DNA of 54,411 bases, from positions 1-54,411 of the forward strand of contig JALHOZ010000030.1 of assembly GCA_022842725.1 (NCBI GenBank). Reading direction: 5' to 3'. Origin of the DNA: Saprospiraceae bacterium. GTDB taxonomy: Bacteria > Bacteroidota > Bacteroidia > Chitinophagales > Saprospiraceae. The notes beneath the pieces were generated by a model. It searched no databases. It was not told the DNA's origin and was given only the letters and a program-made list of their open reading frames with translations. The translations under genes were made by a program, and so were the position numbers. Numbering within the stretch: the stretch's first letter is position 1; each line of letters opens with the position of its first letter. Positions 6,901 through 38,400 of this stretch are shown here, in pieces.

Positions 6901-9900
6901 TAATATTAGTAATACTTTGGATGATGGTGAAGGAGTCCATATTACATCTACTAACTACCAATTATATGAATTTTTTGTAACCACGCCGCCTAATACAACA
7001 TGGGTTACTTTTTTTGCTGAAACTAGTGACAAAGGTGGTTTATATGTGGATGATTTTGAGGTGGTTTCTATAAACGGATGTACATCCACAGCTTTATCAA
7101 CTGTTACAGTAGGAGAAACCAATGTTGTTCAGAATCCTGAGTTTAACAGCGGCACTACATCCTGGGAATTGTATGCACAAGGAGGTGCAGCTGCTACACT
7201 AAACCATGACAATACTTCTCAATTATCAGGAGTAAATTCTGCGAGAATAAATATTTCAACGGCTACCGGTACGGACTGGCATGTGCAGTTTGTAGAAAAT
7301 GGACTTACTTTAGAAGCAGGTAAAACCTATACTTTATCCTTTAGGGCCCGGGCTGCTGCAGCAAGAGTTATAAATGCCTCTGTCGACCTGGGACAGGATC
7401 CCTGGACTAATTATTTATATCAGAATGTTAATGTGACTACAACAGGACAATTGTTTACCTATACATTTACGCAACCTGCCGGCACTTCTAACGGAAGAGT
7501 TGTTTTTAATTTAGGACAGTCCAATCAAACTGTATGGATTGATGATGTCAAATTATTTGAAGCTTGTAGTGCAATATGTGATCCGAATAACTCAAATGCA
7601 CCTCCATTTTGCGCGCCTTCGCCGATTTGTAATTCATCAAATACCATTAATTGGAGTCAGAGTATAAATTCTACAAATGGCAATCCGGGATTGGTCAGGT
7701 TTGTTGCTTGTGGGGGTACAGTAACTTACACCCTGCCCATTAGTTTACCTGCTGAATTTAATGGTCCTGTTTCGGTCAATATTACGGATGCAGTTTCTTG
7801 GGATGGGTACAGTGGAAGAAATACAGTAAGTCAAAGCAATGAAAGTTGGAGGGTTTTATTCAGAAAGAATGGCAGTACGGTTTATGCTTCTCCTTTTACT
7901 AATGATGTTCCTGATAATGTTAATCAGGGATATTGGAGAGGTAGCCTGGGCTCTGCAACCTTTCTTCCGAATGGAGCAGATCAAATCATCATTGAACACT
8001 GGGGTGTTTCCAATAATAATACAGCATGTAATTCAGTGATTCCTGCTTCTGTTTGTATTTCTTATGCTGTTTGTACACCACCTGCTGCACCGACAACAAC
8101 GAGTGCTTCGAGATGCGGACCTGGAACGGTTACACTTACCGCAGCCGGATGTAGTGGTGGTACGCTCAGATGGTATACTGCTTCTTCAGGAGGTAGCAGC
8201 ATAGGGACAGGAGCCAGCTTTACAACTCCTTCCATTTCTTCAACGACTACGTATTTTGTTGCATGTGAATCCGGAGGTTGCGAAAGTACTACCAGAACAG
8301 CTGCAGTAGCTACCGTTAATAATGTAAATGCTTTTGTTTCAGGAATTCTGAATTTGTGTCCTTCAAATAATACCACGACCTTGACAGGAAATGGAGGAGG
8401 AACTTATGTATGGAGTACAGGTGCAACAACATCGAGTATCACTGTGTCACCTGTTTCTACGACAACCTATACGCTTACAGTAACCAATGGGGGTTGTTCA
8501 ACCGCTGTTACTGCAACTGTAAATGTCGGATTATCTTGTTGTGCAGGACATGTCACAAGTAATATTATTGCCGAATATAACTTTTCAGAAGGCACCGGAT
8601 CAGTCGTTAATGACGTTTCCGGTTTTGGAACACCTCTTAACCTGACAATCCAAAATCCGGCAAATACAACTTGGGTGACAGGATGTGGTTTGCGAATCAA
8701 TTCTTCCACCAGAATAGCTTCAACAGGAAATGCTACAAAAATAAGAACAGCTCTTCAGGCTACGAATGCCATGACGGTTGAAGCATGGGTCCAGGCTGCC
8801 AATACAACGCAAAACGGACCGGCTAGAATTGTCAGTATGTCTACAAATACTTCAGAACGTAATTTTACTTTAGGTCAGGGTACAAGTGGAGGCCCGGGAA
8901 CAGTTTGGGCATTTCGAACCAGACAATCCGGAACCAACGATTGGAATGGTATGCCTGAACGTACTACAACCGCCAATTCAGCAACAACCAACCTTACACA
9001 TTTGGTATTTACCAGAGATGCGGCAGGGGTAGAGAGGTTTTATATCAATGGAGTACAAAATGCTACCTGGACTCAGACCGGAAATTTTTCAAACTGGAGT
9101 GATTATGTATTAAATCTTGGTAATGAACAAACCAATGACAGACCTTGGTTGGGAACATTATATAATGTAATTATTTACAGCAATGCATTAAGTGCTGCGG
9201 AGGTTACACAAAATTTTAGTGCCGGATCGAAAGGTGATTGTTCGAATTGTCCTCCTCCTGATTGTATTACTCAATTATGTGCACCTTTAAGTTGTCCTTC
9301 CGGAAATTGTTATACCAACAATTTAATTGTAAATCCTGATTTTGAAACCAATGTAAACAACTGGATTGCTTCAAACGGACAAGTCAGTCAGGGAGGAGGA
9401 GGAAGATATGGAAACTTCATTCAGGTAAACGTATCGGATTTAGCAGGAACGTACACAGCTTATCAGGATGTCAATTTTGGCGCAGGACAAGGTTACCGAT
9501 TTGAAGGAAATGTAGCTAAACATGGTGTAAATAATAATGTAAAAGTATATCTGGAATTTTATAATGGTTCTACTTATTTATCCAAGACAGCAGATTTTAA
9601 TGTGACGATGAATTTTGACGGCTGGAACTGGGAAAATTTTGGATTTCAGGGACTAACTCCTGCTAATACTACAAAAATCAGAATTGTGGCCTGGTGCAAT
9701 GGAAACGCCATCAAAATGGATAAAGTTTCTTTAATTGGATGTACCAACATTACAAGTTCAGCCAATGCAAACAACGTTTGTGTAGGCGGTACTATTAACC
9801 TAACATCCGCTATTAATTTAAATAATGTCAATCCGGTTAAACAGTTGGTATCAAACGGAGGTTTCGTGTCCGGAAGTGTTACCGGATTTTCAACTGACGT

Positions 9901-12900
9901 TCCTTCCGGTTCATTTGGTTTTACAACCAACCCTCAAAATGCAAATGGGTCATGGGTTTGGGGTACTGATAATACTACCGGTACAGGTAATTTAATGTGG
10001 TTTTCAGATGATAATGCTGCCTCAAACAGGAGACAATGGTTCAATACGTACACTGTTGTACCGAATACAACATATACATTAAGTTTTTGGGTCAGAAATG
10101 TTTGGAGCGGAGGAAGTAATCCCACTTTGTTTTGGACAGTTAACGGAACCCAGGTAGGGTCAACCATTACACCTGCCTTTGGCAGTAATTGGGTTCAGTT
10201 AAGTACAACATGGAATTCAGGCTCAAATACGAGTGCGACTTTTGCGGTAGTACTTCAAACCAACAGCTGGAATTTTGATTTTGCTTTAGATGATATTTCA
10301 ATCACCGGAACAGAAACTACTTATCTATGGTCAGGGCCCAATAGTTATTCTTCGTCATTACAAAATAATAACTTAACAAATGCCATTTCTTCTATGGCAG
10401 GTACATATGCTGTAATTACAAGTGCAGGAAATGGTTGTACGGCTTCCTCAAATGTAAATGTTGTTGTTAATTCTAATAATACAGTTACCACAAATGCTAC
10501 AAGAACTCTGTGTGTCAATACAGCTTTGAGTCCAACCATATCCCACACGACCACGGGTGCTACAGGCATCGGAACAGTTACAGGATTACCAACAGGGGTT
10601 ACAGCAGCATGGGCAGGCAATACGATTACTATCAGCGGGACACCTACCGCTTCCGGAACATTTAATTATACAATTCCGTTGACCGGAGGTTGTGGCGCTG
10701 TAAATGCTACAGGAACCATTACGGTTACGGCTAACAATACAGTTACCACAAATGCTACAAGAACCCTGTGTATCAATACAGCTTTGAGTCCAACCATAAC
10801 CCACACAACGACGGGTGCCACAGGCATCGGAACAACAACAGGATTACCAACAGGGGTTACAGCAGCATGGGCAGGCAATACCATTACAATTAGCGGTACA
10901 CCTACAGCCTCAGGAACATTTAATTATACCATTCCTTTAACCGGCGGTTGTGGCGCAGTTAATGCCACAGGAACCATTACAGTTACTGCAAATAATACAG
11001 CAACAACAAATGCTACAAGAACACTATGCGTCAATACAGCTTTGAGTCCAACCATAACCCACACAACGACGGGTGCTACAGGAATCGGAACTGCGACAGG
11101 ATTACCTGCAGGTGTTACAGCGGTATGGGCAAGCAATACGATAACGATTAGTGGCACACCAACGGCTTCCGGAACATTTAATTATACGATTCCGTTAACA
11201 GGAGGTTGTGGTGCTGTAAATGCTACTGGAACCATTACGGTTACAGCAAATAATACAGTTACAGGAATCGGAAGTGCAACCACATGTATCAATACTGCCA
11301 TTTCAACCATAACCCACACAACGACGGGTGCTACAGGAATCGGAACAGTTACAGGATTACCAACAGGTGTTACGGCAGCATGGGCAAGCAATACCATTAC
11401 AATTAGCGGTACACCTACCGCCTCAGGAACATTTAATTATACGATTCCGTTGACCGGCGGTTGTGGCGCTGTAAATGCCACAGGAACCATTACAGTTACA
11501 GCAAATAATACAGTAACAACAAATGCAACCAGAACGCTGTGTATCAATACAGCATTAAGTCCAACGATCACACATACTACTACAGGAGCCACAGGCATCG
11601 GTACAGCTACCGACTTACCGGCAGGTGTTACCGCAACATGGGCAAGTAACACCATTACTATAAGTGGTACACCTACAGTATCAGGAACATTTAATTATAC
11701 CATTCCTTTAACCGGCGGTTGTGGCGTTGTAAATGCCATCGGCACAATAACCGTTAATGCAATAAATACCGTTACCTCAAATGCGACCAGAACGTTGTGT
11801 ATTAATACAGCATTAAGTCCAACGATCACACATACTACCACCGGAGCCACAGGCATCGGTACAGCTACCGGCTTACCTGCAGGTGTTACGGCAACATGGG
11901 CAAGTAATACCATTACCATAAGTGGTACACCTACAGCTTCAGGAACATTCAATTATACCATTCCTTTAACGGGCGGTTGTGGCAATATCAACGCCACCGG
12001 CACAATAACCGTTACAGCTAACAATACAGTAACTACAAATGCATCCCGAACGCTTTGTATCAACACAGCATTAAGTCCAACGATCACACATACAACCACA
12101 GGCGCTACAGGTATTGGTACAGCTACAGGTTTACCTTCAGGCGTAACAGCTTCCTGGGCAAGTAATACGATTACGATCAGTGGCACACCTACGGCTTCAG
12201 GAACATTTAATTATACCATTCCGTTAACCGGTGGTTGTGGCGCTATAAATGCCACAGGAACCATTACGGTTACACCAAACAATACGGTAACAGGCATCGG
12301 AAGTGCAACAACATGTATCAATACTGCCATAACAACCATAACCCACACAACGACGGGTGCCACAGGCATCGGAATAGCGACTGGATTACCAACAGGAGTT
12401 ACGGCAGCATGGGCAAGTAATACCATTTCGATCAGTGGCACACCAACGGCTTCCGGAACTTTCAATTATACCATTCCGTTGACCGGCGGTTGTGGCACTG
12501 TAAATGCCACAGGAACCATTACGGTTACGGCTAATAATACAGTAACAACAAATGCGACCAGAACACTGTGTGTCAATACAGCTTTGAGTCCAACCATAAC
12601 CCACACAACGACGGGTGCTACAGGAATCGGAACAGCGACAGGATTACCTGCAGGTGTTACAGCAGCATGGGCAAGTAATACGATTACGATCAGTGGCACA
12701 CCAACGGCTTCAGGAACATTTAATTATACCATTCCGTTAACCGGCGGTTGTGGCGCTATAAATGCCACAGGAACCATTACGGTTACACCAAATAATACGG
12801 TAACAGGCATCGGAAGTGCAACCACGTGTATCAATACTGCCATAACAACCATAACCCACACAACAACGGGTGCCACAGGAATCGGAACAGCGACAGGATT

Positions 12901-15900
12901 ACCTGCAGGGGTTACGGCAACATGGGCAAGTAATACCATTACGATCAGTGGCACACCAACGGCATCAGGAACTTTCAATTATACGATTCCTTTAACCGGC
13001 GGTTGTGGTGCAGTAAATGCCATAGGAACTATAACCGTCAACGCTAATCCAACAGCCCCGGTTGTGGGCACCATCACCCAACCAACCTGTACCACCCCAA
13101 CAGGAAGTGTGGTATTAAGCGGTCTTCCTGCTACAGGAAGCTGGACGATCTCCAGAGCACCTGGCGGAACAACATACAACGGAACAGGTACAAGCTTTAC
13201 CGTAACAGGACTTCCTGTAAATACAACGTTTACCTTTACAGTGACTAATAGCAATACCTGTACTTCACCTGCGTCTGCAAATGTAGCTATCAATCCAATC
13301 CCTTCAAATCCAACCCTAGGCGGCGCTTCTGCTGTATGTATTGGTTTGACTGCTAATGTCACTCCGGCTACCGCTGGTACATGGACAAGCAGCAACAATT
13401 CCGTAGCAAGTATCACCAATGCCGGATTGGTAACAGGAGTTACCGCAGGTTCGGTGACACTTACCTATACAAGAACAAGTGATGGTTGCAGTAATACAAG
13501 ACCATTTACAGTCAATACCAATCCAACGGCACCTGTTGTTGGTACTATCATCCAACCAACATGTAGCACCCCGGCCGGAAGTGTGGTATTAAACGGACTA
13601 CCTTCAACGGGAAGTTGGACGATTACCAGAACACCGGGCGGCGTTACCTACACCGGAACGGGAACTTCTTATACTGTAAATAACCTGCCTTCGGATAATA
13701 GTTATACTTTCACAGTAACCAATAATAATAGTTGTGTATCTTTATCATCTACTTCTGTAGGGATCGATGGTATACCAAGTATTCCAACACTTGGTGGAGA
13801 TGATGTGGTTTGTGTAGGTGGAACAGCAATTGTAACCCCAACAACGAGTGGTACATGGTTGTCAAGTAACACATCTGTTGCCACAATCACAAACGAAGGA
13901 GTGGTTACCGGAATCGCTCCGGGAATGGTGGTTTTGACTTATACCCGAAATAGCAACGGATGTTCAGGAACACGTGAATTTACCGTTTATGCCAATCCGA
14001 TTGCACCTGTCGTAGGTGCTATCACCCAACCTACGTGTACCACCCCAACCGGAAGTGTGGTATTAAGCGGTCTTCCATCAACAGGTAGTTGGACAATAAC
14101 CAGAACACCGGGCGGAACAACTTATACAGGCACAGGTACAAACTTCACCGTAACAGGACTTCCGATAAACTCCACGTATACATTTATGGTGACAAACAGC
14201 AATATTTGTTCGTCACCTCCATCGGCAAATGTAGCGATTATTGGTATTCCGGGTTTACCGGTCACTGGTGGATCCTCTTCTGTTTGTAAAGGAAGTATTG
14301 CCAATGTTACGCCTTCTTCTAACGGAACCTGGACTAGTAGTAATACAAACATTGCCACAGTCACCAATACGGGAATAGTAACCGGAATAACTACCGGAAC
14401 GGTTTCATTGACGTATACTCGAACAAGCGATGGATGTAGCAATTCATTGAGTTTTACAGTTAATCCGGTACCTAATGCTTCTATAGTTGCAAATATTACC
14501 CAATCATTTTGTATTACATGTCCTGAGCCGCAAGCTGCCTGTACTCCACCGACAACATGGGATCATGATAAATTAATAAATGGAACGGTGAGTTGGTCAT
14601 CATTGAACATAGGAGATCCTTCAAACATAACACAAAAAATCAAACTATCCGGTAGTGGAAAAGTTGTAGTTATGAATAATAATGTTTTATTAACGTCCTC
14701 AAATGGAGTCCTTTTTATAGAAGGTATAGAATTTATTGTTGACAACGGAAATTTAGCACTTACGGAATCAGGTGCCCGATTTATTTTGCATAATGGTTCC
14801 CTAAAAACTTTTGGAAATTTTGAACAGGTATCTAATTCGGGTATTTGTATTAGAAATTCTGAAATCGAAATCGGTGATGAAATGGACGGAGTTGTTTTTA
14901 ATAGCGGAGGTAACCCATCCTCTACAGCCAGTTGGATAAATGATGGCGGATACAGATATTTATTTAACAACCGTATTAATGTTACCCACAATTTTCAATT
15001 AACAAGTACGGGATCGGGTACGGGAATAAACGGGGTTGATGTCATTTGTAATTCTTGTATGGAAATTGGTGATCAAGGCGAAAATAACGCCTTGGATACT
15101 GATTTTGGTATTGCTGATAATAATGATTCCGGAAATTGGGATAATAATAACCGGCAATTTATTGTCAATTCTAAAATTGGCATTGCAAATGGAAACTTCC
15201 AGACAAGCAACAACACAATTTCAGTATGTAATTTATCTGTTAAGGTAAATAAAAGCGGAAGTTTTATCGTCAATTCAGGAATATTTGAGGGAAATCATAT
15301 CAATGTAGGCGTTGAAGATTTGTTTGAAAACAATGGAAATTGGACTGCTACCGGTATAACGTGGTATAGTGAAATAAATAATACAACCAATGTGCCGGGG
15401 GCAGGTTCTGAATCAACAAAAAACAATATATTAGCACAATACCTTACGCCTTGTGGTAATAATTATTCAATTATTTGTTCGGGTCAAAGTACAACTTTGA
15501 CAGCTCATGGCGGAACTTCATATTTGTGGAGTACAGGTTCAACCAATCCTTCCATCACGGTAAACCCCACAGTAAATACACTTTATACTGTTACTGTGAG
15601 TGATTCACAGGGTTGCACGGCGATTGCTTCACAAAATATAATTACGTTGTCCAATCCGACGGCACCGATTGTCGGAACTATCACCCAACCCACCTGTACC
15701 ACTCCGACAGGAAGTGTGGTTTTGAGCGGTTTGCCTTCTACAGGAAGCTGGACCATCATCAGAACACCTGGTGGAACAACTTATACAGGCACAGGTACAA
15801 GCTTTACGGTTACCGGACTTCCGGTTAATACTACATATAACTTTACGATAACGAATCAAAATAATTGTACATCTCTGTCATCTGCCGATGTTTCTATTAA

Positions 15901-18900
15901 TCAGGTTCCTGGTAGTCCTGTGATTAATGGTGCATCAGCAGTTTGTACAGGGAGTTCTGTAAATATATCACCTGCTTCCGGGGGTACATGGACGAGTAGC
16001 AATACATCCGTAGCCACCATCACCAATGCCGGACTGGTAACCGGAGTAGCCGCAGGATCAGTGACACTAACCTATACAAGAACAATTGATGGATGTAGCA
16101 ATACACGACCATTTACAGTAAATGCGAACCCATTAGCACCAGTAGGTACCATCACTCAACCTACGTGTACCAACCCAACCGGAAGTGTTATATTAAATGG
16201 TCTTCCTGCTACAGGAAATTACACCATCAATCAATCACCAGGCGGAATTCCTTACAACGCAAGCGGTTCAACCTTTACCATCAGTGGTTTATCACCTAAT
16301 ACAAATTATACATTTACGGTGACAAGTGCTCAGAATTGTACATCTCCGTCTTCAGCAACGGTCAATATAGCCGGCATTCCTTCTTCTCCGTCAGTTCAGA
16401 TAAATTTTAACGGATCTGTTTGTTTTGAAACCAATAAACAATTGTCTGCTTTGGTATCCGGAGGAGTTGGTCCATTTTCTTACAGCTGGACAGGTCCTTC
16501 AGGTTTTACCGCCAATACCCAAAATGTACAGATACCTGTTAATGGTAATTATTTCGTTACAGTTACTGATGTTAATTTGTGTACTGCCGTGACTTCCGGT
16601 TTTGTTTACCAAAGATATGAACCTTTTGTGGTCAGTCTTCAAACCAGAGTTTGCGAAGGTCAAAATGTCACTCTTGATGTCAACAGTCCTTCTGCTGTAA
16701 GTTATCTTTGGGGTAGCAATGCCGGAAATAACACAACCAAAATGGTTACTGTTACACCTCAGGTACCATCAAGTACCTATCTGGTTACAGTTACCAATGA
16801 TCTGGGATGTACAGCAGTACCTCAAATTACCATTCAGGTTGATCCCAGACCTATAGTGTCAATCACCGGTTCAAACATCATTTGTCAGGAACAAACCACA
16901 CAACTATCTCCCTCAACTGGAGGGACCTGGGTTAGTACCAATCCCGGAGTTGCAACAATAAACAACAGTGGTCTTGTCACCGGAATTTCGGCAGGAACAG
17001 CTACATTTGTTTTTACCAGCAGTACAACAAATTGTGCTTCTCATCCATCAGCTCCGGTTACGGTACATGCCAAACCTGTAGTAGTTGTGACCGGTCCGAA
17101 CCCAATTTGTATTGGCCAAACCACTACACTTTCACCTTCTACAGGAGGAACATGGACAAGTTCAAATGTTTCCGTTGCTACTGTTAATAACAGCGGTATT
17201 GTCACCGGTATTTCAAACGGATCTGCTACATTTACTTATACGAATACCTCGACTTCTTGTGTTTCAAATGCAAGTACTGCGGTAATTTTTCAAAATATTC
17301 CTTCTGCTACGATCACTGGCAATGGTTCTGTTTGTGAATCCTCCAATATTATTCTGAATGCATCAGTACCAGGTGGAACCTGGACGAGTTCGAATCATGC
17401 AGTAGCTGTAATAAATAATTCAGGTATTGTCAGCGGTATCAGCCCCGGAATTGTCACCATTACCTATCAATATGGCACAGGAGTTTGTAGCGGTCAGGTT
17501 CAAAAAAGTATAGAAGTTTTGGATAAACCTGTAATTTCTTACACCGGAGACCAAACCATCTGTGTCGGGCAGACGACATCGTTATCATCAGGTCAGTCAG
17601 GTAATTGGACAAGTTCAAACCCAATGATTGCAATCATCAGCCAAAGCGGCGTGGTGACAGGAGTCAGCGGTGGTGTGGCGACATTTACATTTGAAAATCT
17701 TGCAACCGGATGTCTTTCTGATGCATCTGAAGTGCTTACTGTTTACGAAAAGCCAACCGTAAGCCTCACAGGGCCTTCCACCATTTGTTTGGGAAGAACA
17801 ACTCAGGTTACACCTTCATCCGGAGGTGTTTGGACAAGCTCAAATCCTTTGGTAGCCACCATTACCAATAATGGCGTGATTACATCAACGGGTATTGGAA
17901 CAACATCCTTCACCTTTACAGACAATCTCACCGGTTGTTCTTCTGACGGAAACATATCTGTTTCAGTCGGAGCCGCAATATCAGCTATGATGGATTATCA
18001 TGGAAATATTTGTCTGACAGATACCTCAAAACTATCCGTCATTCCTTCAGGAGGCACACCGGCATTTTCATACCAATGGGTAGGACCTCTTGGATTTACC
18101 GGAAATACACAAATCATTGACATCAATGCAAATGGTAATTATTTTGTAACCATCACAGATGCTTTAGGCTGTAAGGCTAATCTTTCAGGTTTTGTTTATC
18201 AGAGATTTGATCCGTTTATTGTAAATCTTTCTTCATCAGTGTGTGAAGGTCAGAGTGTCAATCTTTCTGTAAATGCGCCAACGGCCGTATCTTACTTATG
18301 GAGTTCGAATGCCTCAAATGCAGTAACATCTTCAGTTCAGGTAATACCTGTTCTGCCTTCTTCAGCATATTTTGTTACAGTTACCAATAATTTGGGTTGT
18401 AAAGCCGTTGCAAATGCCTCTGTTTTGGTCAATCCTAAGCCTGTAGTTAACATAACCGGTGGAAACACCATTTGTATAGGTCAGACCACAACCATGACAC
18501 CTTCATCAGGCGGTAGCTGGGTCGCTTTACATCCTTCTGTTGCCACCATTACACAAGCAGGTGTGGTCACAGGAACAGGTTTCGGAAACGCAAGATTTTT
18601 ATTTACAAACTCTACTACAGGTTGTACATCTGATACATCAGGTATTGTCTCAGTCAATAGTTCGACCAATATAGCTTTTGTCGGACCTTCATCTGTTTGT
18701 GCCGGCGATCAGACATCTGTGAGTCCGGGATCAGGTGGCAGTTGGGTTTCATCAAATACATCCGTTGCTACTGTTAATAATGCAGGTCTGGTGGTTGCAC
18801 TTTCTCCTGGTGTTGCTCAATTGACATATACCAATAATTTAGGGTGTACCACAAACGGATCACTGTCCGTTACGGTACACGACAAACCGGCAATCCTTTT

Positions 18901-21900
18901 GGACGGACCATCACAAATTTGTATCGGATCAACCACAAGATTTTTACCATCCAACGGAGGTACATGGACAACTTCCCATGCTTCCATAGCTTCCATAAAT
19001 AATTCAGGATTGGTGACCGGAATATCACAAGGAACAGCACGGTTTGTTTATACCAATGCATTTACCGGTTGTAAATCTGATTCCTCCACAACAATCAATA
19101 TATTACCAAGACCTGTTGTTCAGATTACAGGAAATAATCCGATATGTGTGGGTTCTTCTACTACGTTATCTCCAAATACCGGAGGAATGTGGATGAGTAG
19201 TAACCCATCCGTGGCCAGTGTCACAAATGCCGGTGTTGTCAACGGTTTGGGACAAGGGAATGTAAACTTTACATTTACCAATAATACCACCGGATGTTCC
19301 AGTCTTCCAACTGCACCACTTACCGTAAATGCCAGACCGGTTGTTTCAGTCACTGGTCCTAACGGAATTTGTATTGGCGGAACAACTACATTGTCTCCTT
19401 CGACCGGAGGAACATGGACAGTTGTAAATCCATCTGTTGCATCGGTGTCCAATGCCGGATTAGTAACTGGTTTGGCACCAGGATCAACAGGTTTTATATT
19501 TACAAATGCATCAACAGGATGTATATCAAATGCTACCAACAATGTAACAGTATACGGCAGACCGACAGTAAATATCAACAGTACATCTATTTGTGTCGGA
19601 GCAACTACCACCGTGACACCTTCAACAGGAGGCGTTTGGACCTCATCCAACCCGGCAGTTGCCACGGTTAATGGTTCAGGATTGGTGACAGGAGTTTCAG
19701 CTGGACAGGTTAGTTTTACTTTTACTGAAAATTCAACCGGTTGTACATCCAATCCGACGTCAACTTTGCAGGTTTTTGGAAAACCTGTAGTATCCATAAC
19801 TGGTCCGACAAACATTTGTGTTGGTCAGACTACAACTTTACAACCTATAACAGGAGGTGCCTGGTCAAGTTTGTCTCCTTCAGTAGCAACAGTTTCCAAT
19901 TCGGGAATCGTTACAGGAGTTGGTAATGGTTCAGCTCAGTTTGTCTTTACCAGCAATCAGGGTTGTGCTTCTGATCCTTCCGGAAATGTAACAGTAAACG
20001 CACGACCTGTTGTAATAATAACCGGACTTAACCCGATTTGTATAGGTACAACAACTCAATTGTCTCCTGCATCAGGAGGAACATGGGTTTCATCTCATCC
20101 ATCCGTTGCCTCTGTAAATAATTCCGGATTGGTTACGGGAATGGCAGCCGGAGGATCACGTTTTGTATTTACACAAACTTCTACAGGATGTTCTTCTGAC
20201 TCATCCTCTTTGATAACGGTTAATGCACCGCCGGTAGTAAATCTTCTAGGATCTCCGTCTATATGTATTGGTCAGACGTCTCAGGTTAGCCCGACAGCAG
20301 GAGGAACCTGGATGTCATTGAATCCGACCATTGCCACAGTATCCAATGTTGGTCTTGTCACCGGAGTCAGTGCCGGTCAGGCAAGCTTCAAATTTGTTCA
20401 AACAAGTACCGGTTGTGAAAACACTTTGTCAAATGTAATCACTGTAAGACCAAGACCTGACATTTCTTTGTCGGGACCTTCACAGATTTGTATTGGTGCA
20501 ACCACACAATTTACACCGACCAGTGGGGGAACCTGGACATCTCTGATGACATCTGTTGCTACGATCAACAATTCAGGTTTGGTTACCGGTATCTCACAGG
20601 GACAGGCGACTTTCAGATTTACCAGTGCTTCTACAGGATGTACTTCTTTAGCTTCCGCTCCGGTAACGGTTTTAGGCAGACCGACGGTATTGTTAGACGG
20701 ACCAAACAGTATTTGTATAGGAAATAATACACAGGTGTTGCCTAATTCAGGTGGCAGTTGGTCTTCAACCAATCCTTTGGTTGCTACCGTTAGTTTGACC
20801 GGTTTGGTGACCGGTGTAGGAGCAGGTACAGCACAATTTATTTTTACAGAAGAAAATACAGGTTGTGTGTCCAATCCTACCACAGCGATCACCGTATTTA
20901 ACGGAGCAACGGTTAGTTTATCCGGACCTTCTTCCATCTGTACCGGCTACAATTCAACATTGTCATCATCGACTTCAGGTGTTTGGTATAGTACCAACCC
21001 TATGATAGCCGAAGTTTCCTCTAACGGAATGGTCACAGGTATCGCACCGGGTAAAGTAAGTTTTTACTTTCAACAATCGGGAACTGGCTGTTTGTCTTAT
21101 TTGCCGGATGATATTTTAACTGTAACACAATGTATTGATGCTGATTTTAATGTCACTGCCGTCAATGTACCGTTGACCGGAGATGTTCACACCAACGATG
21201 AAGTTCCTGTGGGTACCACCTACAGTACAAACCCTTATCTTGTCGGGAAACCCGACGGAAGTTCGGCTACACTGACCATGTTGAATAACGGAAAATACAC
21301 TTTCACGGCAGATAAGCCGGGTACGTACCTTTACAATGTGCCTGTGTGTATACCGGGAATGGGTTCTTCTTGCCCCGTATCTGCATTGATTATTACAGTG
21401 GTCAATCCATTTACACAAAGTCATAATTTGATTACCAATTTAGATATAACCTATACTATACAAGATCAACCCGTTAATTTTAATGCTCAAGTGAATGATG
21501 ATTGTATTTCTGCTTCCGGCTGTATGGTTGACCCTCAAATGATTACGGTGATAGTTCCACCGAATCACGGGAATGCTATCATCCTTACAGACGGAAGTTT
21601 GTTGTACACGCCTGCTTCCGGTTTTATTGGTTTTGATACCCTGACTTATCAGGTGTGTGCAACCAATAATGCCGGAAACTGCAGGAGCGCCCAATTGATT
21701 GTGACTGTGATGTCTTCCGACGCATCCAACAGTCTGGCAGCAGCCGATGATTTTTACTCTATTCCGAAAGGCGGAGTTGTCAGTGATGCCAATGTATTAT
21801 TCAATGATTTTGACCCGGAAGGTGGCAAAATCAGTATTATTCCGCAAGGAAGTGTCCAAAATCCCGTTGTGTTAGTGGCAGGTTCGTATCACATCAATTC

Positions 21901-22930
21901 AGAAGGTGTGTTACATTTTGAAGCCTCGCCCACTTTCACAGGACCTTTTGACATCGTCTACACGATTTGCGATTCAGTCAATTTTTGTGTGAACGCTACA
22001 GCTCATATATTAGTGGTGGACAATATGAAACTGCGCATCAGAGCTTACCTTGAAGGAGCTTTGATGGAAAACAAAGATGCGGTTTCTTCTACCGGACGTC
22101 CATTAATGAGAGACGATTTGAGAAATAATAAATTTACAAACAGCAACATCATACCAAGCATTGATCCTTACAGCAATCCTGTCGGGTTTATCGATATAAG
22201 TCATCGTTTTGACCATGTTGGCTCATCAGGGAGTGCTGCTTTAACCACTATTCAACATCCAAATACTGTTTTTGCTGTCACAGGTGAAAATGCCATCGTG
22301 GATTGGGTTTTTATCGAATTAAGATCCAAAGAAAATTATGGCGAGGTTATAGGCACACGATCTGCGCTCATCCAAAGAGATGGCGATGTAGTGGATTTGG
22401 ACGGTGTCAGCTTCGTGGAATTCCCGGGTTTAAATGTGGACAGCTGTTACGTAGTTTTGAAACACAGAAACCACCTCGGTGTCATGTCTTTGAAAATTGC
22501 TACCGGTGACCTTGTGGACTTTACTTCGCCTTCCACTCCGGTATTTGATTACGGAACCGGCAAAAACGATGGTTATGACTATACGGGTCTGGCTCAAAAA
22601 GCCGATGTTGCTCTGGGATATATGTCTCTTTGGGCTGGTGATTTTGATGGTAGCGGAAAAATTAAGTTTGTGAATCCCGATGATGATCAGAACTTCCTTT
22701 TTATCGAAGTACTTTTTTATCCGACCAATACAGATTTCGTAGCCAATTATAATTTTGTGCACGGATACCTTCAGGGTGATTATGACCTGAACGGAAAATC
22801 CAAATATGACAATCCTGATGATGATAAAAATATGTTGTTTTATCAGGTTCTGTTCTATCCGTTAAACACAAATTATACTTCTAATTTTAACTTTATAACG
22901 GAGCAGGTACCTCCGAAAAATATTAATTAA
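3980..22930 (+). CDS. Giant 6316-residue modular surface adhesin-like protein
   Basis: Likely an exported adhesin or cell-surface fibre. Modules in order, with rough residues: signal peptide 1-48 (cleavage after SHAYA); glycine-rich domain 54-268; Ig/PKD-like and carbohydrate-binding-like jelly-roll domains to about 1200 ([25 protein letters not shown]); LamG-like domain about 1530-1750; another CBM-like domain about 1780-1920; ten 86-residue Ig-like repeats 2166-3023; alternating QPTC-type and BIG_2-like modules to 3500; a beta-helix-like insert 3509-3827; a long BIG_2-like array to about 5717, giving 21 recognisable BIG_2 modules in all, most with one Cys near each end; two cadherin/Big_9-like domains about 5718-6014; and a C-terminal module with two Asp-rich copies near 6220 and 6266. 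It lacks the normal T9SS tail. The frame is intact over 18.9 kb, which argues for function. Confidence 0.9.
10474..13046 (+). repeat. Ten tandem 255-258 bp repeats inside the giant gene
   Basis: Ten in-frame copies encode an 85-86-residue Ig-like unit beginning [13 protein letters not shown] or [13 protein letters not shown] and ending [16 protein letters not shown]. Copies 4, 8 and 10 are the GIGSATTC variant and each follows a TRTLC copy, so two-unit blocks appear to have been duplicated. DNA identity between copies is very high, typical of recent slippage or recombination. Confidence 0.9.
14505..15460 (+). other. Beta-helix-like insert within the Ig array (part of the giant gene)
   Basis: About 320 residues here do not repeat and do not resemble the Ig modules on either side. 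Short periodic strand-like stretches ([41 protein letters not shown]-like rungs) suggest a right-handed parallel beta-helix. The DNA is AT-richer than the flanking repeats. The fold is an inference from the pattern of alternating hydrophobics and Asn/Gly turns. Confidence 0.5.
22020..22930 (+). other. C-terminal module with duplicated Asp-rich motif (part of the giant gene)
   Basis: The last 300 residues begin [14 protein letters not shown], pass a [19 protein letters not shown] strand region, and end with two copies of the pattern GD(F/Y)DxxGKxK(F/Y)xNPDDD(Q/K)N followed by VLFYPxN, closing on EQVP. The Asp spacing resembles calcium-binding dockerin or EF-hand loops. From memory, similar tails close many large Bacteroidota surface proteins in place of the T9SS type A domain. 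Confidence 0.6.
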
Positions 22931-32291: not shown

Positions 32292-32511
32292 AATAAAGGT
32301 TTAATGATAAAGAAAAAATCGTTTATACATGTATTTCTTTGTAGAATCACCGATGTTCCAAAACGTTGCACAACCTTATGTTGTTTTTTTGAATCCTGAC
32401 TTTTTCCTGAAGCTATTCTGGCAGATAATTTTTTGAAGTATCTACCTTATTGTGAATATTATTGAAGGTATAATAATGACTTCAGGAATAATAGTTTTTC
32501 GTTTTTTTCAT

Positions 32512-32551
32512 AAAAAAAGGAGTACCCCGACCTGGCTTTCGGAGTACTCCT
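32512..32551 (-). terminator. Rho-independent terminator of the small beta-barrel gene
   Basis: Read leftward, AGGAGTAC and GTACTCCT pair around a partly paired interior (TCCGAAAGCCAGGTCGGG) and run into seven T residues. It lies just past the stop at 32560. Confidence 0.88.
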
Positions 32552-32559
32552 GTTATTTT

Positions 32560-33114
32560 TTATTTTCTTTTTGGCGAAGAAAATTTATAAGCCATTGTCA
32601 CCGCAACAGCATTGGAATTAAATCCAGCATTTACATCAATGACATCTGCAAAAATTTCATCTTCATAAAATGTAGAAGCACTTAAAGTCGGAATCGTCTC
32701 CAAACTTACATAAAATTTATCAGAAAAATCATATTGAAATCCCAATACATATCCCAAAAATACACCGATATTACCTCCGGTAGAACCATCGCTGTTGACC
32801 AGGCTAAAGTTAAAACCCGGCTCCCACCCATGAATAAATTTTAACTTGTCGACAATGTTTTTTCTTTTTTCCACCCCGGCTGCCAGATTGATTTCAAATC
32901 CAAAATCGGTTCCTTCACTAATCTGCAAACTTACATTTGATGCGGCCACACGATATCGTTTGTACTTCATCCCGTCTTCACTTTTTTTGTAAATAAAGTC
33001 AATATCCTGAATATTGTTAAAACGAAGTCCTAATTCTCTCGACATATCCTGTGCCGATGCCTGAAAATTAAAAAAACAAAACATCAAAAAAATAAATGAA
33101 AATTTGTTGTTCAT
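32560..33114 (-). CDS. Small outer-membrane beta-barrel-like protein
   Basis: A 184-residue exported protein with signal peptide MNNKFSFIFLMFCFFNFQASAQ. The mature part alternates hydrophobic and polar residues in barrel-like strands: VSLQISEGTDFGFEINLAAG, NIGVFLGYVLGFQYDFSDKFYV and NAVAVTMAYKF near the C-terminus. That fits a small outer-membrane barrel of the PorT or OmpA-like type, though the last residues (KFSSPKRK) do not end on the usual aromatic. I do not recognise a named family. It is a single leftward gene with its own terminator, downstream of which lies the SprB-repeat gene in the same direction. Confidence 0.7.
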   Translation of the reverse strand: MNNKFSFIFLMFCFFNFQASAQDMSRELGLRFNNIQDIDFIYKKSEDGMKYKRYRVAASNVSLQISEGTDFGFEINLAAGVEKRKNIVDKLKFIHGWEPGFNFSLVNSDGSTGGNIGVFLGYVLGFQYDFSDKFYVSLETIPTLSASTFYEDEIFADVIDVNAGFNSNAVAVTMAYKFSSPKRK

Positions 33115-33455
33115 AATGGTTAGATTTAGGTTATTAAATAAAAAACTATTCTTAACCTAAACGACATGAAATTGTTTTTTGCGGTTTGAACATTTCTTAA
33201 AATTTTATTAAAAAAATAATCATAACAAAAAACTGAGGTTGAGATTAAGGTTAAGATGGTTTCATCCTCAAAATTGTCAGCCATCTTCCGCGTCGACAAC
33301 TCATCATTTCACTCCGAAAGCTTTCGGAATCAAATCATCAAATCGTCCGTCAAAAAAGGGGCGTTAGCCCTGTTATCTTAGTAGAATAATTATAAAACGA
33401 TAATTTGAGGGGCGTCAGCCCTGAGTTCTCAGAATATGGTCCAATAATTTTGGTT

Positions 33456-33502
33456 CATTTTCTCTGTTTTACCCCAACCCTGAACGGGAGCCAGAGAAAA
33501 TG
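33456..33502 (+). repeat. Loop-conserved hairpin H1
   Basis: CATTTTCTCTG (33456-33466) pairs perfectly with CAGAGAAAATG (33492-33502). The 25-nt loop begins TTTTACCCCAACCC and contains a CCC/GGG inner pairing. The loop is shared with hairpins of unrelated stem sequence nearby; the 5' arm and loop recur without the 3' arm at 34095 and 34687. Confidence 0.8.
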
Positions 33503-33528
33503 GATTTCAGTATTTAGATTCCGGTGTA

Positions 33529-33717
33529 TTACTTCCCACCGAGGCCATCATCGTCCGGGGCTCCCTTGAGGGTCGGGGTAAAACCCGGGCGATGATGGCC
33601 GGTAATCCATCGACCGGCGAGCTGAGGAACGAAGACCGCTGAGCGATGGATTGAGTAAAAGAAGATACGATCCTGTTTTGATTGCGTTAAGCCTTCCAAA
33701 TGTTTTCGCTCAAGGGT
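33529..33717. repeat. 189-bp structured repeat unit, copy 1
   Basis: It contains a 17-bp stem with one G-T wobble (33543-33559 with 33584-33600). On the complementary strand its 24-nt loop reads TTTTACCCCGACCC followed by TCAAGGGAGC. A second 9-bp stem is AATCCATCG (33604-33612) with CGATGGATT (33644-33652). The second copy at 34983-35171 differs at only a few bases, some in the inner loop stem where pairing is kept. Confidence 0.82.
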
Positions 33718-33735
33718 GACTGACCGTTGCGCGCC

Positions 33736-33765
33736 ATTTTGAGCCCACCCACAAGGGCTCAAAAT
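33736..33765. repeat. GAGCCC palindrome, copy 1
   Basis: ATTTTGAGCCC and GGGCTCAAAAT form an 11-bp perfect inverted repeat with the loop ACCCACAA. GTTGCGC upstream and GCGAAC downstream can extend the pairing with one bulge. Identical cores lie at 34148-34177, 34331-34360 and 34740-34769. Confidence 0.85.
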
Positions 33766-34147
33766 AGGGAAGGAACCGCGAACTAAAATTACATAGGTTT
33801 TAGGTGCTGGGTGTTAGGTATTAGGCAGTTTTGTCGAACCTTCGGGAGGTGTGAAAGATAAAAAAGTTTTTTTTTTCAATGCTTCGCATTGATTCGTTCA
33901 TACCCATCCCCGTCCCTTCCCTCAGGATGGAAGGGTGACGCACAAGGCCTGGTTTTTAGTGGTTGATTTTTTGAAATTTTAGGGTTCCCTTGGATAGGGG
34001 CGTAGCCCTGTTATCTTAATAGAAAAATCAAAAAACGATAATTTGAGGGGCGTCAGCCCTGAGTTCTCAGAATATGGTCCAATGATTTCCGGTTCATTTT
34101 CTCTGTTTTACCCCAACCCTGAAAGGGTGACTGACCGTTGCGCAGCA

Positions 34148-34177
34148 ATTTTGAGCCCACCCACAAGGGCTCAAAAT
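34148..34177. repeat. GAGCCC palindrome, copy 2
   Basis: Same 11-bp arms and ACCCACAA loop as copy 1. The inner flank is GCAGCA rather than GCGCC. Confidence 0.85.
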
Positions 34178-34330
34178 AGGGAAGGAACCGCGAACCACGG
34201 CTCGCGGGTGAAAAAATCTTTTATTGAAAACTTCGAAATTCCCGACCCTCCGTGCGCCGCTTCGATACAAATCGACAAATCTTACAAATTTAACAAATCA
34301 AACATTCCTAGTGACTGACCGTTGCGCGCC

Positions 34331-34360
34331 ATTTTGAGCCCACCCACAAGGGCTCAAAAT
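34331..34360. repeat. GAGCCC palindrome, copy 3
   Basis: Same arms and loop as copy 1, at the left end of the second direct repeat. Confidence 0.85.
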
Positions 34361-34739
34361 AGGGAAGGAACCGCGAACTAAAATTACATAGGTTTTAGGT
34401 GCTGGGTGTTAGGTTTTAGGCAGTTTTGTCGAACCTTCCGGAGGTGTGGAAGATAAAAAAGGATTTTTTTCAATGCTGCGCATTGATTCGTTCATACCCA
34501 TCCCCGTCCCTTCCCTCAGGATGGAAGGGTGACGCTCAGGGTCTGGTTTTTGTGGTTGATTTTTTGAGATTTTAGGGTGCCCTTGGATAGGGGCGTAGCC
34601 CTGTTATCTTAATAGAAAAATCAAAAAACGGTAATTTGAGGGGCGTTAGCCCTGAGTTCTCAGAATATGGTCCAATAATTTTGGTTCATTTTCTCTGTTT
34701 TACCCCAACCCTGAAAGGGTGACTGACCGTTGCGCAGCA

Positions 34740-34769
34740 ATTTTGAGCCCACCCACAAGGGCTCAAAAT
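34740..34769. repeat. GAGCCC palindrome, copy 4
   Basis: Same arms and loop as copy 1, near the right end of the second direct repeat. Confidence 0.85.
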
Positions 34770-34894
34770 AGGGAAGGAACCGCGAACCACGGCTCGCGGG
34801 TGGAGAATTCTTTTAGTAATTACTTTGATATTCCCGACTCTCATGTAATGCCCCGATACAATTATTGCAAATCAAACAAATATAAAACTTAGTT

Positions 34895-34942
34895 CATTTA
34901 GTCCGTTTTACCCCGACCCCTAAAAGGGTGACGGACTAAATG
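34895..34942 (+). repeat. Loop-conserved hairpin H2
   Basis: CATTTAGTCCG (34895-34905) pairs perfectly with CGGACTAAATG (34932-34942). The 26-nt loop begins TTTTACCCCGACCCC and ends AAAAGGGTGA. The stem differs from H1 at several positions on both arms, while the loop is nearly the same. Confidence 0.8.
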
Positions 34943-34982
34943 GATTACACCAAATTAATTGCAGTATTAAAATGATACTATT

Positions 34983-35171
34983 TTACTTCCCACCGAGGCC
35001 ATCATCGTCCGGGGCTCCCTATAGGGACGGGGTAAAACCCGGGCGATGAAGGCCGGTAATCCATCGACCGGCGAGCTGAGGAACGAAGACCGCTGAGCGA
35101 TGGATTGAGTAAAAGAAGATACGATCCTGTTTTGATTGCGTTAAGCCTTCCAAATGTTTTCGCTCAAGGGT
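34983..35171. repeat. 189-bp structured repeat unit, copy 2
   Basis: Near-identical to 33529-33717. The inner loop stem reads TCCCTATAGGGA in place of the earlier CTCCCTTGAGGG, so the small hairpin is kept by paired changes. One stem position is a mismatch (GATGAAGG). Confidence 0.82.
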
Positions 35172-35237
35172 CGCCTTTCAGGACGCACCTTGGTCGAAAA
35201 CAAGTTGACCTATTGTGCGCCGCCCCGATACAAATCG

Positions 35238-35381
35238 ACAAATCCAACAGTTTTTACAAATCCAACAGTTTTTACAAATCCAACAGTTTTTACAAATCCA
35301 ACAGTTTTTACAAATCAAACAATTCCAACAAATCAAACAATTATTACAAATCAAACAATTCTTACAATTTTAACAATTCCA
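35238..35381. repeat. 18-bp tandem repeat upstream of the restriction gene
   Basis: Four identical units ACAAATCCAACAGTTTTT (35238-35309) are followed by four degenerate ones (ACAAATCAAACAATTCCA and similar). The array ends 40 bp before the start codon at 35422 and just upstream of a weak -7-like TATCTTTA (35397-35404). Copy number could vary by slippage and alter promoter spacing; this is an inference. Confidence 0.85.
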
Positions 35382-35421
35382 ACACCAAAAAAAATTTATC
35401 TTTACCCATTAATATCTGCCT

Positions 35422-38400
35422 ATGCCTCCAAAACTTCTCAAGGTTGCACCCAAAAAAACGCTCAACGCAGCTTTTCTCAAACTCAGACCCCTGCGCAGCG
35501 AAATGGATCTTTTTAAATCCAATCTCATCCGCCTGCTCGACCATATCAATGAATCGGAAAGCGAAGAAAATCAGAAAAATCATGTCCGCGACTTTCTCCT
35601 AAATACATATTATACGCACAAACATGAGGTGAATACCAAAGGTCGCCAGGATCTTGTCATCCATACAGATGGTCATAATACTTCTCCGGTCGGCGTCATC
35701 ATCGAAACAAAACGTCCCGCCAATAAGTCCGAATGGATCTCTGCCGATAAACCGAACAACAAAGCGCTCCACGAACTGGTACTATACTTTCTCCGCGAAC
35801 GGGTGGACGGAAACAACCTCGATATCCGCCATCTCGTCGCAACCAATGTCTATGAATGGTATATCTTTGACGCTTCGGTCTTTGAGAAATTGTTTTATCA
35901 AAATAAAAAATTTGTCCGCGATTACGAAGCATGGCGCGATGGCCAAAAAGTCACCAAAGACACCAATCTTTTTTACAACGAAATCGCACGTCCTTATATA
36001 GACAGTCTCACCGAAGAGATTCCGGTGGCGTTTTTTGACCTGCGGGAATACGATACGGAACTCCGCAATGCCGACAAAGCCGATGACAAAAAACTCATCG
36101 CCCTGCAAAAACTGCTTTCGCCATACCACCTGCTCAAACAGGCTTTTGCCAATGACAGCAACAGCCTCGACAAACGGTTTTACAGCGAACTCCTCCACAT
36201 TATCGGTCTCACGGAAACCAAAGAAGGGGGCAAAAAACTCATCGGTCGACACAAAACCGGCGAACGGCTCTCCGGTACCATACTCGAAGATGCCATCATT
36301 CAGATCGAAAGCCTCGACAAACTTTCCCGCATCGACAAGCCGGGTCAGTACGGTGCCGACAAAGAGGAACGGCTTTTCAACATCGCTCTCGAACTGTCCA
36401 TCACCTGGATCAACCGCATCCTTTTTCTCAAACTCCTCGAAGGGCAGCTCGTGAGCTACCACCAGACAGATGCCAACTACCTTTTTCTCAATAAAAAAAC
36501 CATCCGCGAATACGACGACCTCAATACCTTGTTTTTTCAGGTTCTGGCCAAAAAACACGAAGACCGACACGATGATGTCCGCTCCGCTTTTGTGCGTGTG
36601 CCTTATCTCAACTCGTCCCTTTTTGAACCGACAGAACTCGAACACAATACCATCTTCATCTCCAACCTGAAGGATGACAAAACCATCCCGGTCTATGCGC
36701 AGACGGTCCTGAAAGACAGCTCCGGCAAAAAACGTTCCGGGCAGATGACGACACTCGAATACCTCTTCGAATTTCTCAATGCCTACGACTTCAGCAGTGA
36801 GGGTTCGGAAGATATTCAGGAAGACAACAAAACCCTCATCAATGCTTCCGTCTTAGGGCTGATCTTCGAAAAAATCAACGGCTACAAGGACGGTTCGTTT
36901 TTTACGCCGGGATTTATCACCATGTATATGTGTCGCGAGACCATACGTCGGGCCGTCGTACAGAAGTTTAACGAAACGAAGTCCTGGTCGTGCAGCGATC
37001 TCACAGAACTCTACAACAAAATCGAAGACCGCACCGAAGCCAATGACATCGTCAACAAGCTGCGCATCTGCGACCCTGCCGTAGGTTCCGGACACTTTCT
37101 CGTGTCGGCCCTCAACGAGATCATCGCCATCAAGGGAGAATTGGGCATATTACAGGATGAAAACGGCAGAAGGCTGAAGGATTATGCAGTGGAAGTCATC
37201 AACGACGAACTCATCATCAAGGACGAAAACGGTGATTTGTTTGCCTATAATCCCAAAAATACCGAAAGTCAGCGCATCCAGAAGACCTTGTTTATTGAAA
37301 AGCAGACCATCATCGAAAACTGTTTGTTTGGTGTGGACATCAACCCCAATTCTGTCAAGATCTGTCGTCTCCGGCTTTGGATAGAATTGTTGAAAAACGC
37401 ATATTACAAAAAAGAAAACGAACTCGAGACCCTGCCCAACATCGACATCAACATCAAGTGCGGCAATTCATTGGTGAGTCGTTTTGCTTTGGATGCTGAC
37501 ATTCGTGCTGCTTTAAAAAAGAGCAATTGGACGATAGATGGTTACAAAGCGGCTGTGTCCACTTATCGTAATACAAAGAGTCGGGAGATAAAAAACGAAA
37601 TGGAAAGTCTTATTCTACAAATGAAGCAAAAATTTTCTTCGGAAATAAGAATGAGTGATCCAAATAAAAAGAGATTGGATAAATTAGCAAGTGAACTTTA
37701 CCACAGATTTACAGGAACCTTTTTATTTGAGTCTCAAGCTCCTTATGAAAATTATGAAGATCCGATTGAGAAAAAGAAAAAAGCAGAACAAGAAAAACTT
37801 GAAAAGGAAATAGCTTTAATAAATCAAAAGCTTGAAGAATCTAAAAATAATGTAATTTACAATAATTCATTTGAATGGAGGTTTGAGTTTCCCGAAGTTT
37901 TAAATGATGAAGGTGACTTTATTGGCTTTGATGTTGTGATCGGGAATCCTCCGTATTACTCTATGTCTAAAATTAAGGATCAAGCAGATTATTTTTTAAA
38001 TGCTGGTTATGAGACCTACTCTAAAGGAGCTGATATTTACTGTCTATTCTACGAATTAGGTGGTAGAATTCTCAAAGCAAATGGTTATTTAACATATATC
38101 ACTTCCAATTCTTGGCTAAGGGCTATTTATGGCGAATTACTTAAAGCACATTTCATGAAAAGCCTACAACCCATTACACTGTTGAACATTGAAGACGTGC
38201 AAATATTTGAAGAAGCCACTGTTGAATCGAACATCATTACATTACAAAAAAGAAAGTTGACCGATAATTTTTCTGTAGTCAATTTATCGAGCGAATATGT
38301 GTTTGGTGCTTCTCTTTCTGACTATTTTGACCAAAACCATTTTGAATTTTCTGTTCCCGAAACTTCAGAATGGTTTATTGGAAACCAGACAGTTGGTAAT

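Follow-up and report, generated by a model that had tools for sequence, protein, structure and literature searches.

What are the hairpins that crowd the intergenic DNA at 33.3-35.4 kb of a Saprospiraceae contig, and what might have moved them there? The window, i.e., the whole stretch of DNA analyzed here, comprises 54,411 nt (assembly GCA_022842725.1, Saprospiraceae bacterium, contig JALHOZ010000030.1, positions 1-54,411, forward strand), and the region in question is a mosaic of repeats, several of which present one loop on different stems. The repeats combine a constant core with re-paired stems, are dispersed through the genome, and belong to a class (a small C/G hairpin, followed after 1-3 nt by GGGG) that is associated with DUF559 genes in several phyla. 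The new observation is that this class flanks single-domain DUF559 genes, which encode a Vsr-like nuclease family. We lean toward the reading that the hairpins are non-autonomous dispersed DNA repeats, similar to repetitive extragenic palindromic (REP) sequences, which are moved by a DUF559 nuclease.

A preliminary description of this region had listed six loop copies, four of them within hairpins, and two that had kept the first arm and the loop and lost the second arm. All six were recovered as matches to GGGTYGGGGTAAAAC (up to two mismatches allowed; 0.26 expected by chance), the four intact hairpins fold with z values of -3.2, -4.8, -4.1 and -2.9, and the copies at 34095 and 34687 show no hairpin fold (z 0.4 and 0.8): these two are chimaeras, in which the sequence past GGG continues into an adjoining GGGTGACTGACCG module. 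A wider motif, which admits mini-stems down to 3 bp, matches eight times in the 54-kb window, always within 33.4-35.1 kb, and adds two members to the six loop copies. The outer stems do differ, as had been described, but they represent two positional types of one unit (Table 1): the L type (CATTT...AAATG) carries its loop on the minus strand, the R type (GGCCATCATCG) on the plus strand, and in the two units of the window L is separated from R by a spacer of 40 and 54 nt, respectively.

Reading of the copies in the source genome (G000; 87 contigs, 4.6 Mb, completeness 95.5%) yielded 12 complete L-spacer-R units, one unit cut within R (locus L072), one lone L (L074:1231), two lone R copies (C47; C52:7524), besides the two chimaeras of the window. 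Since several copies lie near contig ends, the true copy number may be higher. The pattern GGGGTAAAAC has 22+18 matches in this genome versus 1+10 for the reversed control, a 326-base stretch has 33 blast matches, and the distance between loop starts on opposite strands is 108-109 nt for six pairs and 124 nt for one. REPINs are small dispersed palindromes that occur in inverted pairs and bracket a cognate gene. The window repeats resemble them in being small, dispersed palindromes with a bracketed cognate gene, and in that two inverted palindromes make up one unit; they differ in their partner, which is a PD-(D/E)XK (DUF559) protein and not a Y1 transposase.

The stems vary between copies: L inner stems read TCTCTG, AGTCCG, TTGTTG, TTGTCG, and others, R stems ATCATCG, AGCTTCG, and others. 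When arms were compared at the offset with the best pairing, a choice that favours pairing, and with G-T pairs counted, 18 of the 20 distinct arm pairs in the source genome were paired at 9 or more of 12 positions. One arm pair reached 8/12 (L071:1298, probably a chance match of the search expression), and the remaining one, 5/12, is that of the two chimaeras. Over 14 copies of the R stem, 94.5% of cells are paired, both sides have changed in four pairs (a count reached by 22/500 shuffles), and covariation amounts to 0.167, compared to 0.112 in shuffles (0/500 as high), which leave the relatedness of copies in place, and to at most 0.107 when the arms are slid; further pair types (9) are not above shuffles (361/500). 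The earlier claim that both arms had changed together while pairing was kept is borne out.

The loop reaches well beyond this genome. In a search with the whole unit, one other of 148 genomes (the source genome included) matched, a member of the same genus, and it did so over the loop alone: its two copies sit on stems very unlike those of the window, TTTAAAATTCATTTTG/CAAAATGAATTTTAAA and the imperfect ATAAAATTCCTTTTG/CAAAAGGTATTTTTAT. A contig scan for CYCTNNNGGGTYGGGGTAAAAC returned 39 stretches, 36 from Bacteroidota and three from elsewhere (Emcibacter, L099; Kaiparowitsia, L110; Lelliottia, L114), which look like chance matches. At least one copy is paired at 7/8 or better in 27 of the 36 Bacteroidota stretches, often on unrelated stems, compared to none of the three other stretches and neither of two viral stretches, whose loop-pattern matches pair at 5/8 and 4/8. 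Altogether, 66 hairpins gave 39 distinct arm pairs, and 21 of these are paired at 7/8 or better, whereas 1000 shuffles of the right arms gave a mean of 4.0 and a maximum of 10. The further loop-conserved copies that the preliminary description had proposed to look for therefore exist in many Bacteroidota genomes. Some form arrays: one stretch of Flavobacterium taihuense holds 12 matches, many spaced 50 nt, Flavobacterium sp. ACAM 123 has four at 51-52 nt, and Robertkochia solimangrovi has six at about 190-450 nt. The Robertkochia arrays (L097, L117) use a CCTCG/CGAGG stem, and their genome (G352) has no DUF559 match.

Genes next to the loops were surveyed by clustering open frames of at least 80 amino acids, followed by Pfam annotation. 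Glycosyltransferases formed the widest cluster (5 loci), which was judged ordinary and set aside; DUF559 genes adjoin the hairpins in three loci (L108, L109, L120). Close variants of the window loop, on different stems, bracket a DUF559 gene in one genome of the window's genus and in some genomes of Flavobacterium and Salinimicrobium. By search expression, a window-like loop lies within 300 bp of 10 of 58 DUF559 genes (L251, L252, L257, L259, L267, L274, L275, L148, L234, L120; L259 is locus L109 and L274 is locus L108). By reading, seven of them (L148, L251, L252, L257, L259, L274, L275) have such loops on both sides, on different stems, several of these calls involving loop variants on one side, and two (L120, L234) have the loop on one side only. 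In G003, a genome of the window's genus, DUF559 stands between two arrays that present one core on two stems, AAATGTTTTTG/CAAAAACATTT and AAGGGTTTTC/GAAAACCCTT.

The source genome contains one DUF559 match (G000:C60:3861-4202, locus L125), and this gene is bracketed by modules that also occur in the window mosaic: 33873-33950 matches L125:1221-1298 upstream of the gene and 33871-33939 matches L125:1915-1984 downstream; 34467-34565 and 34465-34533 match L125:1221-1319 and L125:1915-1984, respectively, and four window stretches, copies of the GACCGTTGCG module, match the downstream flank within L125:1976-2070. On the DUF559 tree, L125 groups with L152 (100/99), and both genes adjoin AAGAGAGGGG followed by 3 nt and GGGG(G)TGAGT. 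By eye, the flanks of L223, L232, L233, L242 and L273 carry another subtype, a hairpin followed by TTRGGG[TA]GAGG or similar, which seems to accompany a different DUF559 clade.

How strong is the association? It was scored within 300 bp of genes with a frozen motif (a stem of at least 4 bp containing CCC, a loop of 2-10, a gap of 1-3, and GGGG), and chance expectations were taken from dinucleotide shuffles. In the discovery set, after the reading of whose flanks the motif was fixed, it occurs near 15/21 single-domain DUF559 genes (31 loci minus 10 frames of more than 250 amino acids; two of the 21 without upstream flank), with 0.9 expected. A held-out set of 30 loci, drawn from further genomes within the phylum (19 single-domain, 11 multi-domain), gave 10/19 for the single-domain genes, with 1.1 expected and p 3e-6 against pooled controls (2/60). 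In plasmid loci of other phyla (16 of 33 records matching one DUF559 protein: 4 Deinococcus, 7 Alphaproteobacteria, 1 Photobacterium, 4 Cyanobacteriota; 4/16 without annotation under the DUF559 match), the motif was found at 14/16, failing at L315 and L319, with 2.3 expected, or at 13/15 without L321, which lies inside a long annotated coding sequence. Controls gave 1/30 for NUDIX, 1/30 for ParE and 0/31 for Y1/RAYT genes (0.2-0.4 expected); the NUDIX match resembles a tRNA arm on reading, and the ParE match neighbours the DUF559 array of G003.

At the level of whole genomes, a DUF559 match (E<=0.001) is present in 24/27 exact-loop genomes (one locus per Bacteroidota genome, L098 left out), compared to 109/198 in a draw from the phylum (p 6e-4) and 56/120 among relatives. 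Of these 120 relatives, 36 were marked as having single-domain DUF559, and 16/36 are enriched for the repeat class (pattern above the reversed control at p<0.01), compared to 6/84 without (p 5e-6). In a DUF559 tree with 57 rows (58 minus the 86-amino-acid L276), the window-like-loop label needs 4 changes versus a shuffled mean of 9.4 (0/500 as low), and 8 of its 10 rows fall into one starred clade of nine rows, a clustering that is raised by near relatives on the tree. The association of the repeat class with single-domain DUF559 genes is strong.

The preliminary description had found no known family for the hairpins. That view has to be revised, since the loop resembles the core of the BoxC/PIT/TM repeats, which are described as intrastrand-triplex repeats (Holder et al., 2015; PMC4666352). 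There, too, a C/G hairpin is followed by TC, TT, or CC and then by a G run, and several of the 23 E. coli BoxC copies stand in inverted pairs. BoxC copy 12 reads CCCTCTCCCTTCCAGGGAGAGGGTCGGGGTGAGGGT, near the window loop CTCCCTTGAGGGTCGGGG, and Table 1 of the same paper includes a BoxC copy with CTCCCTTCCAGGGAGAGGGTCGGGGTGAGGG. The arrangement CCC..GGG, 1-3 nt, GGGG is present in 6/6 window copies if mini-stems of 3 bp are allowed; the mini-stem of 33456-33502 has 3 bp only. However, window mini-stems measure 3-5 bp, whereas the ITxF definition requires a triplex stem of 6-15 nt (PMC4666352), and the window core is carried by an outer stem that is long and variable. With a triplex stem of insufficient length, the window repeats are not counted as strict members of BoxC/PIT; the claim is only that they work like them.

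In E. coli, remnants of transposases or integrases were never found around BoxC, according to PMC4666352, the main text of which has no word beginning with nuclease, DUF or Vsr. BoxC copy 9 (1351204-1351239) lies 167 bases from ycjD (1351407-1351760), which is annotated as DUF559, and the sole strict motif match at the ycjD locus is within this copy; the chance of such closeness is about 0.4% (23 copies in 4.64 Mb), by a rough estimate made after the fact. A PF04480 search gave no match in the E. coli control genome, for which strain or threshold are the only explanations offered.

Among the closest known systems is DUF559 (PF04480), with E. coli YcjD and PDB 3hrl: the partner proteins match this family above the Pfam cut-off, and NCBIfam PRK09767 below its equivalog cut-off; neither library states a function. 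A profile search (alignment A2) found PDB 3hrl at 6.9e-24; E values near 1e-3 were obtained for PvuRts1I and for 3r3p, a mobile intron protein. A structure model of modest quality (pLDDT 67, three-sequence alignment) gave 3hrl first in Foldseek (2.7e-4) and the homing endonuclease I-Bth0305I next (3.7e-3, probability 1.00). I-Bth0305I (PDB 3r3p) is similar to the partner in its catalytic fold (profile E 0.0011), but its PDB entry gives it the name of a mobile-intron protein. In PMC12907096, DUF559 is placed among the PD-(D/E)XK Vsr-like endonucleases, and a Caulobacter DUF559 protein is tied to the DNA damage response. The literature searched, with most subscription journals outside it, describes no partnership of DUF559 with repeats, has no joint mention of DUF559 and triplex, and mentions DUF559 together with "palindromic" only in an unrelated context. 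In the PADLOC defence scan, the L125 protein had no hit and the L109 protein two low-scoring hits (mREase_II, 1e-7; DpdF, 4e-5).

How could such a nuclease move a repeat? The recognized part would be a compact core at the tip of the outer stem, comprising the CTCCC-loop-GGG mini-hairpin, TC/TT, and GGGG, and might form a small intrastrand triplex. Once its site becomes single-stranded or is extruded, the core would fold. The partner, a single-domain DUF559 protein that represents the PD-(D/E)XK nucleases with the Vsr / I-Bth0305I fold, would recognize and nick the folded core, and repair or replication could then copy the hairpin or the hairpin pair into new intergenic sites. With the core as the recognized part, the stem sequence would be free as long as it still pairs. 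Mobilization by DUF559 is suggested by position, by the clustering of repeat types with protein clades, by dispersal, and by relatives in fold, a homing endonuclease among them; binding and cutting by DUF559 are putative. The core idea of the preliminary description, a structured element whose loop is recognized and whose stem may vary, is supported by the loop-conserved copies in many Bacteroidota genomes; the element may be moved in trans, with a DUF559 nuclease as the candidate factor.

Several observations weigh against mobilization by DUF559. Excision, insertion, or cleavage was not observed. The reading of flanks before the motif was fixed affects all but the held-out and plasmid sets, the association counts are uncorrected for kinship, single- and multi-domain genes of the held-out set differ with p 0.12 only (10/19 vs. 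2/11), and the strict motif fails at 9/19 held-out genes, most of which have GGG or longer-gap variants by eye only. Repeats shared from flank to flank proved unspecific (DUF559 10/18, NUDIX 0/29, ParE 8/30), and were dropped as evidence because of the ParE result. Three of the 27 exact-loop genomes lack a DUF559 match, including the Robertkochia genome with its loop arrays, and a fourth (G349) has a weak one only; 6/84 genomes without single-domain DUF559 are enriched for the class, and 20/36 genomes with it are not. Among the loop-labelled tree rows, 8/10 stem from genomes or loci that had been selected by their loop (exceptions L148 and L234), and 9/36 loop-bearing Bacteroidota stretches lack a good stem. 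Finally, the DUF559 flanks of the source genome carry sister modules and not the GGGTCGGGGTAAAAC loop itself, so that the cognate enzyme of the L/R unit would be missing from the assembly, lost, or acting in trans.

Could the matched arms have a simpler origin? Template switching can correct quasipalindromes by copying one arm onto the other, and a new stem would then be perfect in one step. The stem of 34895-34942, which is found in no other listed copy of the source genome yet is fully paired over CATTTAGTCCG, is what such a switch would leave behind, and half-switched copies exist, e.g., L067:1215, in which one arm is of the ATCATCG type and the other reads CGAAGTT (9/12 paired). However, the outer pairs, CATTT/AAATG and GGCC/GGCC, are conserved, which speaks for constraint or common descent as well, and we consider quasipalindrome correction a possible, if doubtful, account of the arm changes, which is moreover compatible with mobilization by DUF559. 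A somewhat less probable alternative is that DUF559 manages the repeats rather than mobilizing them, as a Vsr-like repair nuclease that resolves or limits triplex or hairpin structures, or that the repeats regulate the mRNA of DUF559 itself, with replication slippage and recombination accounting for their spread. The Vsr-like fold and the Caulobacter link to DNA damage (PMC12907096) would suit this role, and the tandem arrays, which repeat every 50-52 nt, point to slippage or recombination; management alone, however, leaves cognate repeats on both sides of the gene, the clustering by protein clade, and the dispersed single units unexplained.

Selection on a fold could also point to a regulatory element, such as a terminator, an mRNA end, or a small RNA. 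Stable folds and paired stem changes would be expected of such an element, but it is an improbable explanation: positions 32500-35700 contain no Rfam family (one sub-threshold hit, 16.7 bits versus a gathering score of 45), 12 matches in one stretch of one species, many at 50-nt steps, and the association with one nuclease family do not suit it, and PIT elements are reported (PMC4666352) to have neither promoter nor terminator activity. A search of the window for tRNA and tmRNA found none, and 33300-35420 had no similarity match in plasmid DNA. Least probable is that the repeats are ordinary REP/REPIN sequences moved by a Y1 (RAYT) transposase. The layout of two inverted hairpins is REPIN-like and the source genome has two Y1 genes, but both are flanked by a different palindrome, GCCCTGAAAGGGCGTAATA, and are among the 31 Y1 loci without the motif; the Y1 transposase was therefore rejected as mobilizer. 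The palindrome GCCCTGAAAGGGCGTAATA, which brackets these two Y1/RAYT-like genes (G000:C8:15442 and C2:244433; L031, L032), represents a separate REP-like family of the source genome.

Table 1. Repeat features of the window, in window coordinates.
Feature	Position	Strand	Remarks
L hairpin, unit 1	33456..33502	-	stem CATTTTCTCTG/CAGAGAAAATG; loop GCTCCCGTTCAGGGTTGGGGTAAAA read on minus strand
R hairpin, unit 1	33543..33600	+	17-bp stem GGCCATCATCGTCCGGG; loop GCTCCCTTGAGGGTCGGGGTAAAA
Complete two-hairpin unit 1 (L, spacer, R)	33445..33603	.	loops mutually inverted
L hairpin, unit 2	34895..34942	-	stem differs from unit 1: CATTTAGTCCG/CGGACTAAATG
R hairpin, unit 2	34997..35054	+	stem family as in R of unit 1; mini-stem altered
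Broken L copy	34095..34127	-	first arm and loop kept, then junction with GGGTGACTGACCG module
Second broken L copy	34687..34719	-	junction with GGGTGACTGACCG module as in 34095 copy
Extra class member	33903..33935	-	CCCTTCC..GGAAGGG-AC-GGGGATGGG
Second copy of CCCTTCC..GGAAGGG member	34497..34529	-	motif match
Module GACCGTTGCG..GAGCCC..GGGCTC..GGAACCGCGAAC	33712..33784	+	further copies 34123-34215, 34312-34379, 34715-34809
Module often 3' of R	33601..33720	+	second copy 35055-35171; 16-base inverted repeat AATCCATCGACCGGCG/CGCTGAGCGATGGATT (81%)

Some further features stand beside the two-hairpin units. Parts of the module that follows R (33601-33720, 35055-35171) are found alone on contigs C49, C43 and C47. 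By eye, the flanks of L138 and window positions 33712-33784 share a frame, CGTTGCGCAGCAA ... GAACCGCGA, enclosing different stems (ATGATTCG/CGAATCAT at L138, TTTTGAGCCC/GGGCTCAAAA in the window), which is perhaps a second module with constant frame and changing stem; the two gave no blast alignment at E 0.01. Elsewhere in the window, an 18-base tandem repeat, ACAAATCCAACAGTTTTT, extends over 35238-35390 and decays toward the start of a 1259-amino-acid open reading frame at 35422, and one open frame of 6316 amino acids spans 3980-22930. On a Sphingomonas parapaucimobilis plasmid (L316), DUF559 lies between genes for transhydrogenase subunits. In a look for empty sites, for which L316 was the only plasmid locus checked, 14 other listed records, of 148 matching, align in two pieces, with a span of 585-910 bases compared to about 990; the shorter span would fit insertion or loss at the DUF559 site.

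The finding suggests a possible role for DUF559, and the presence of these genes beside repeats in Bacteroidota, Pseudomonadota, Cyanobacteriota, and Deinococcota makes the family a concrete candidate for the mobility gene of E. coli BoxC. The evidence seems evenly balanced on the wider proposal that a second, independent REP-type system exists across bacteria, in which BoxC/PIT-type repeats would be made and spread by a DUF559 nuclease recognizing the folded core, protein clades and repeat subtypes would co-evolve, and the window hairpins would represent a Bacteroidota branch, with the core on freely changing stems. If true, this would be a class of mobile elements that relies on an enzyme other than a transposase or recombinase of known type, and a natural example of a DNA fold that is recognized while the sequence of its stem is free.

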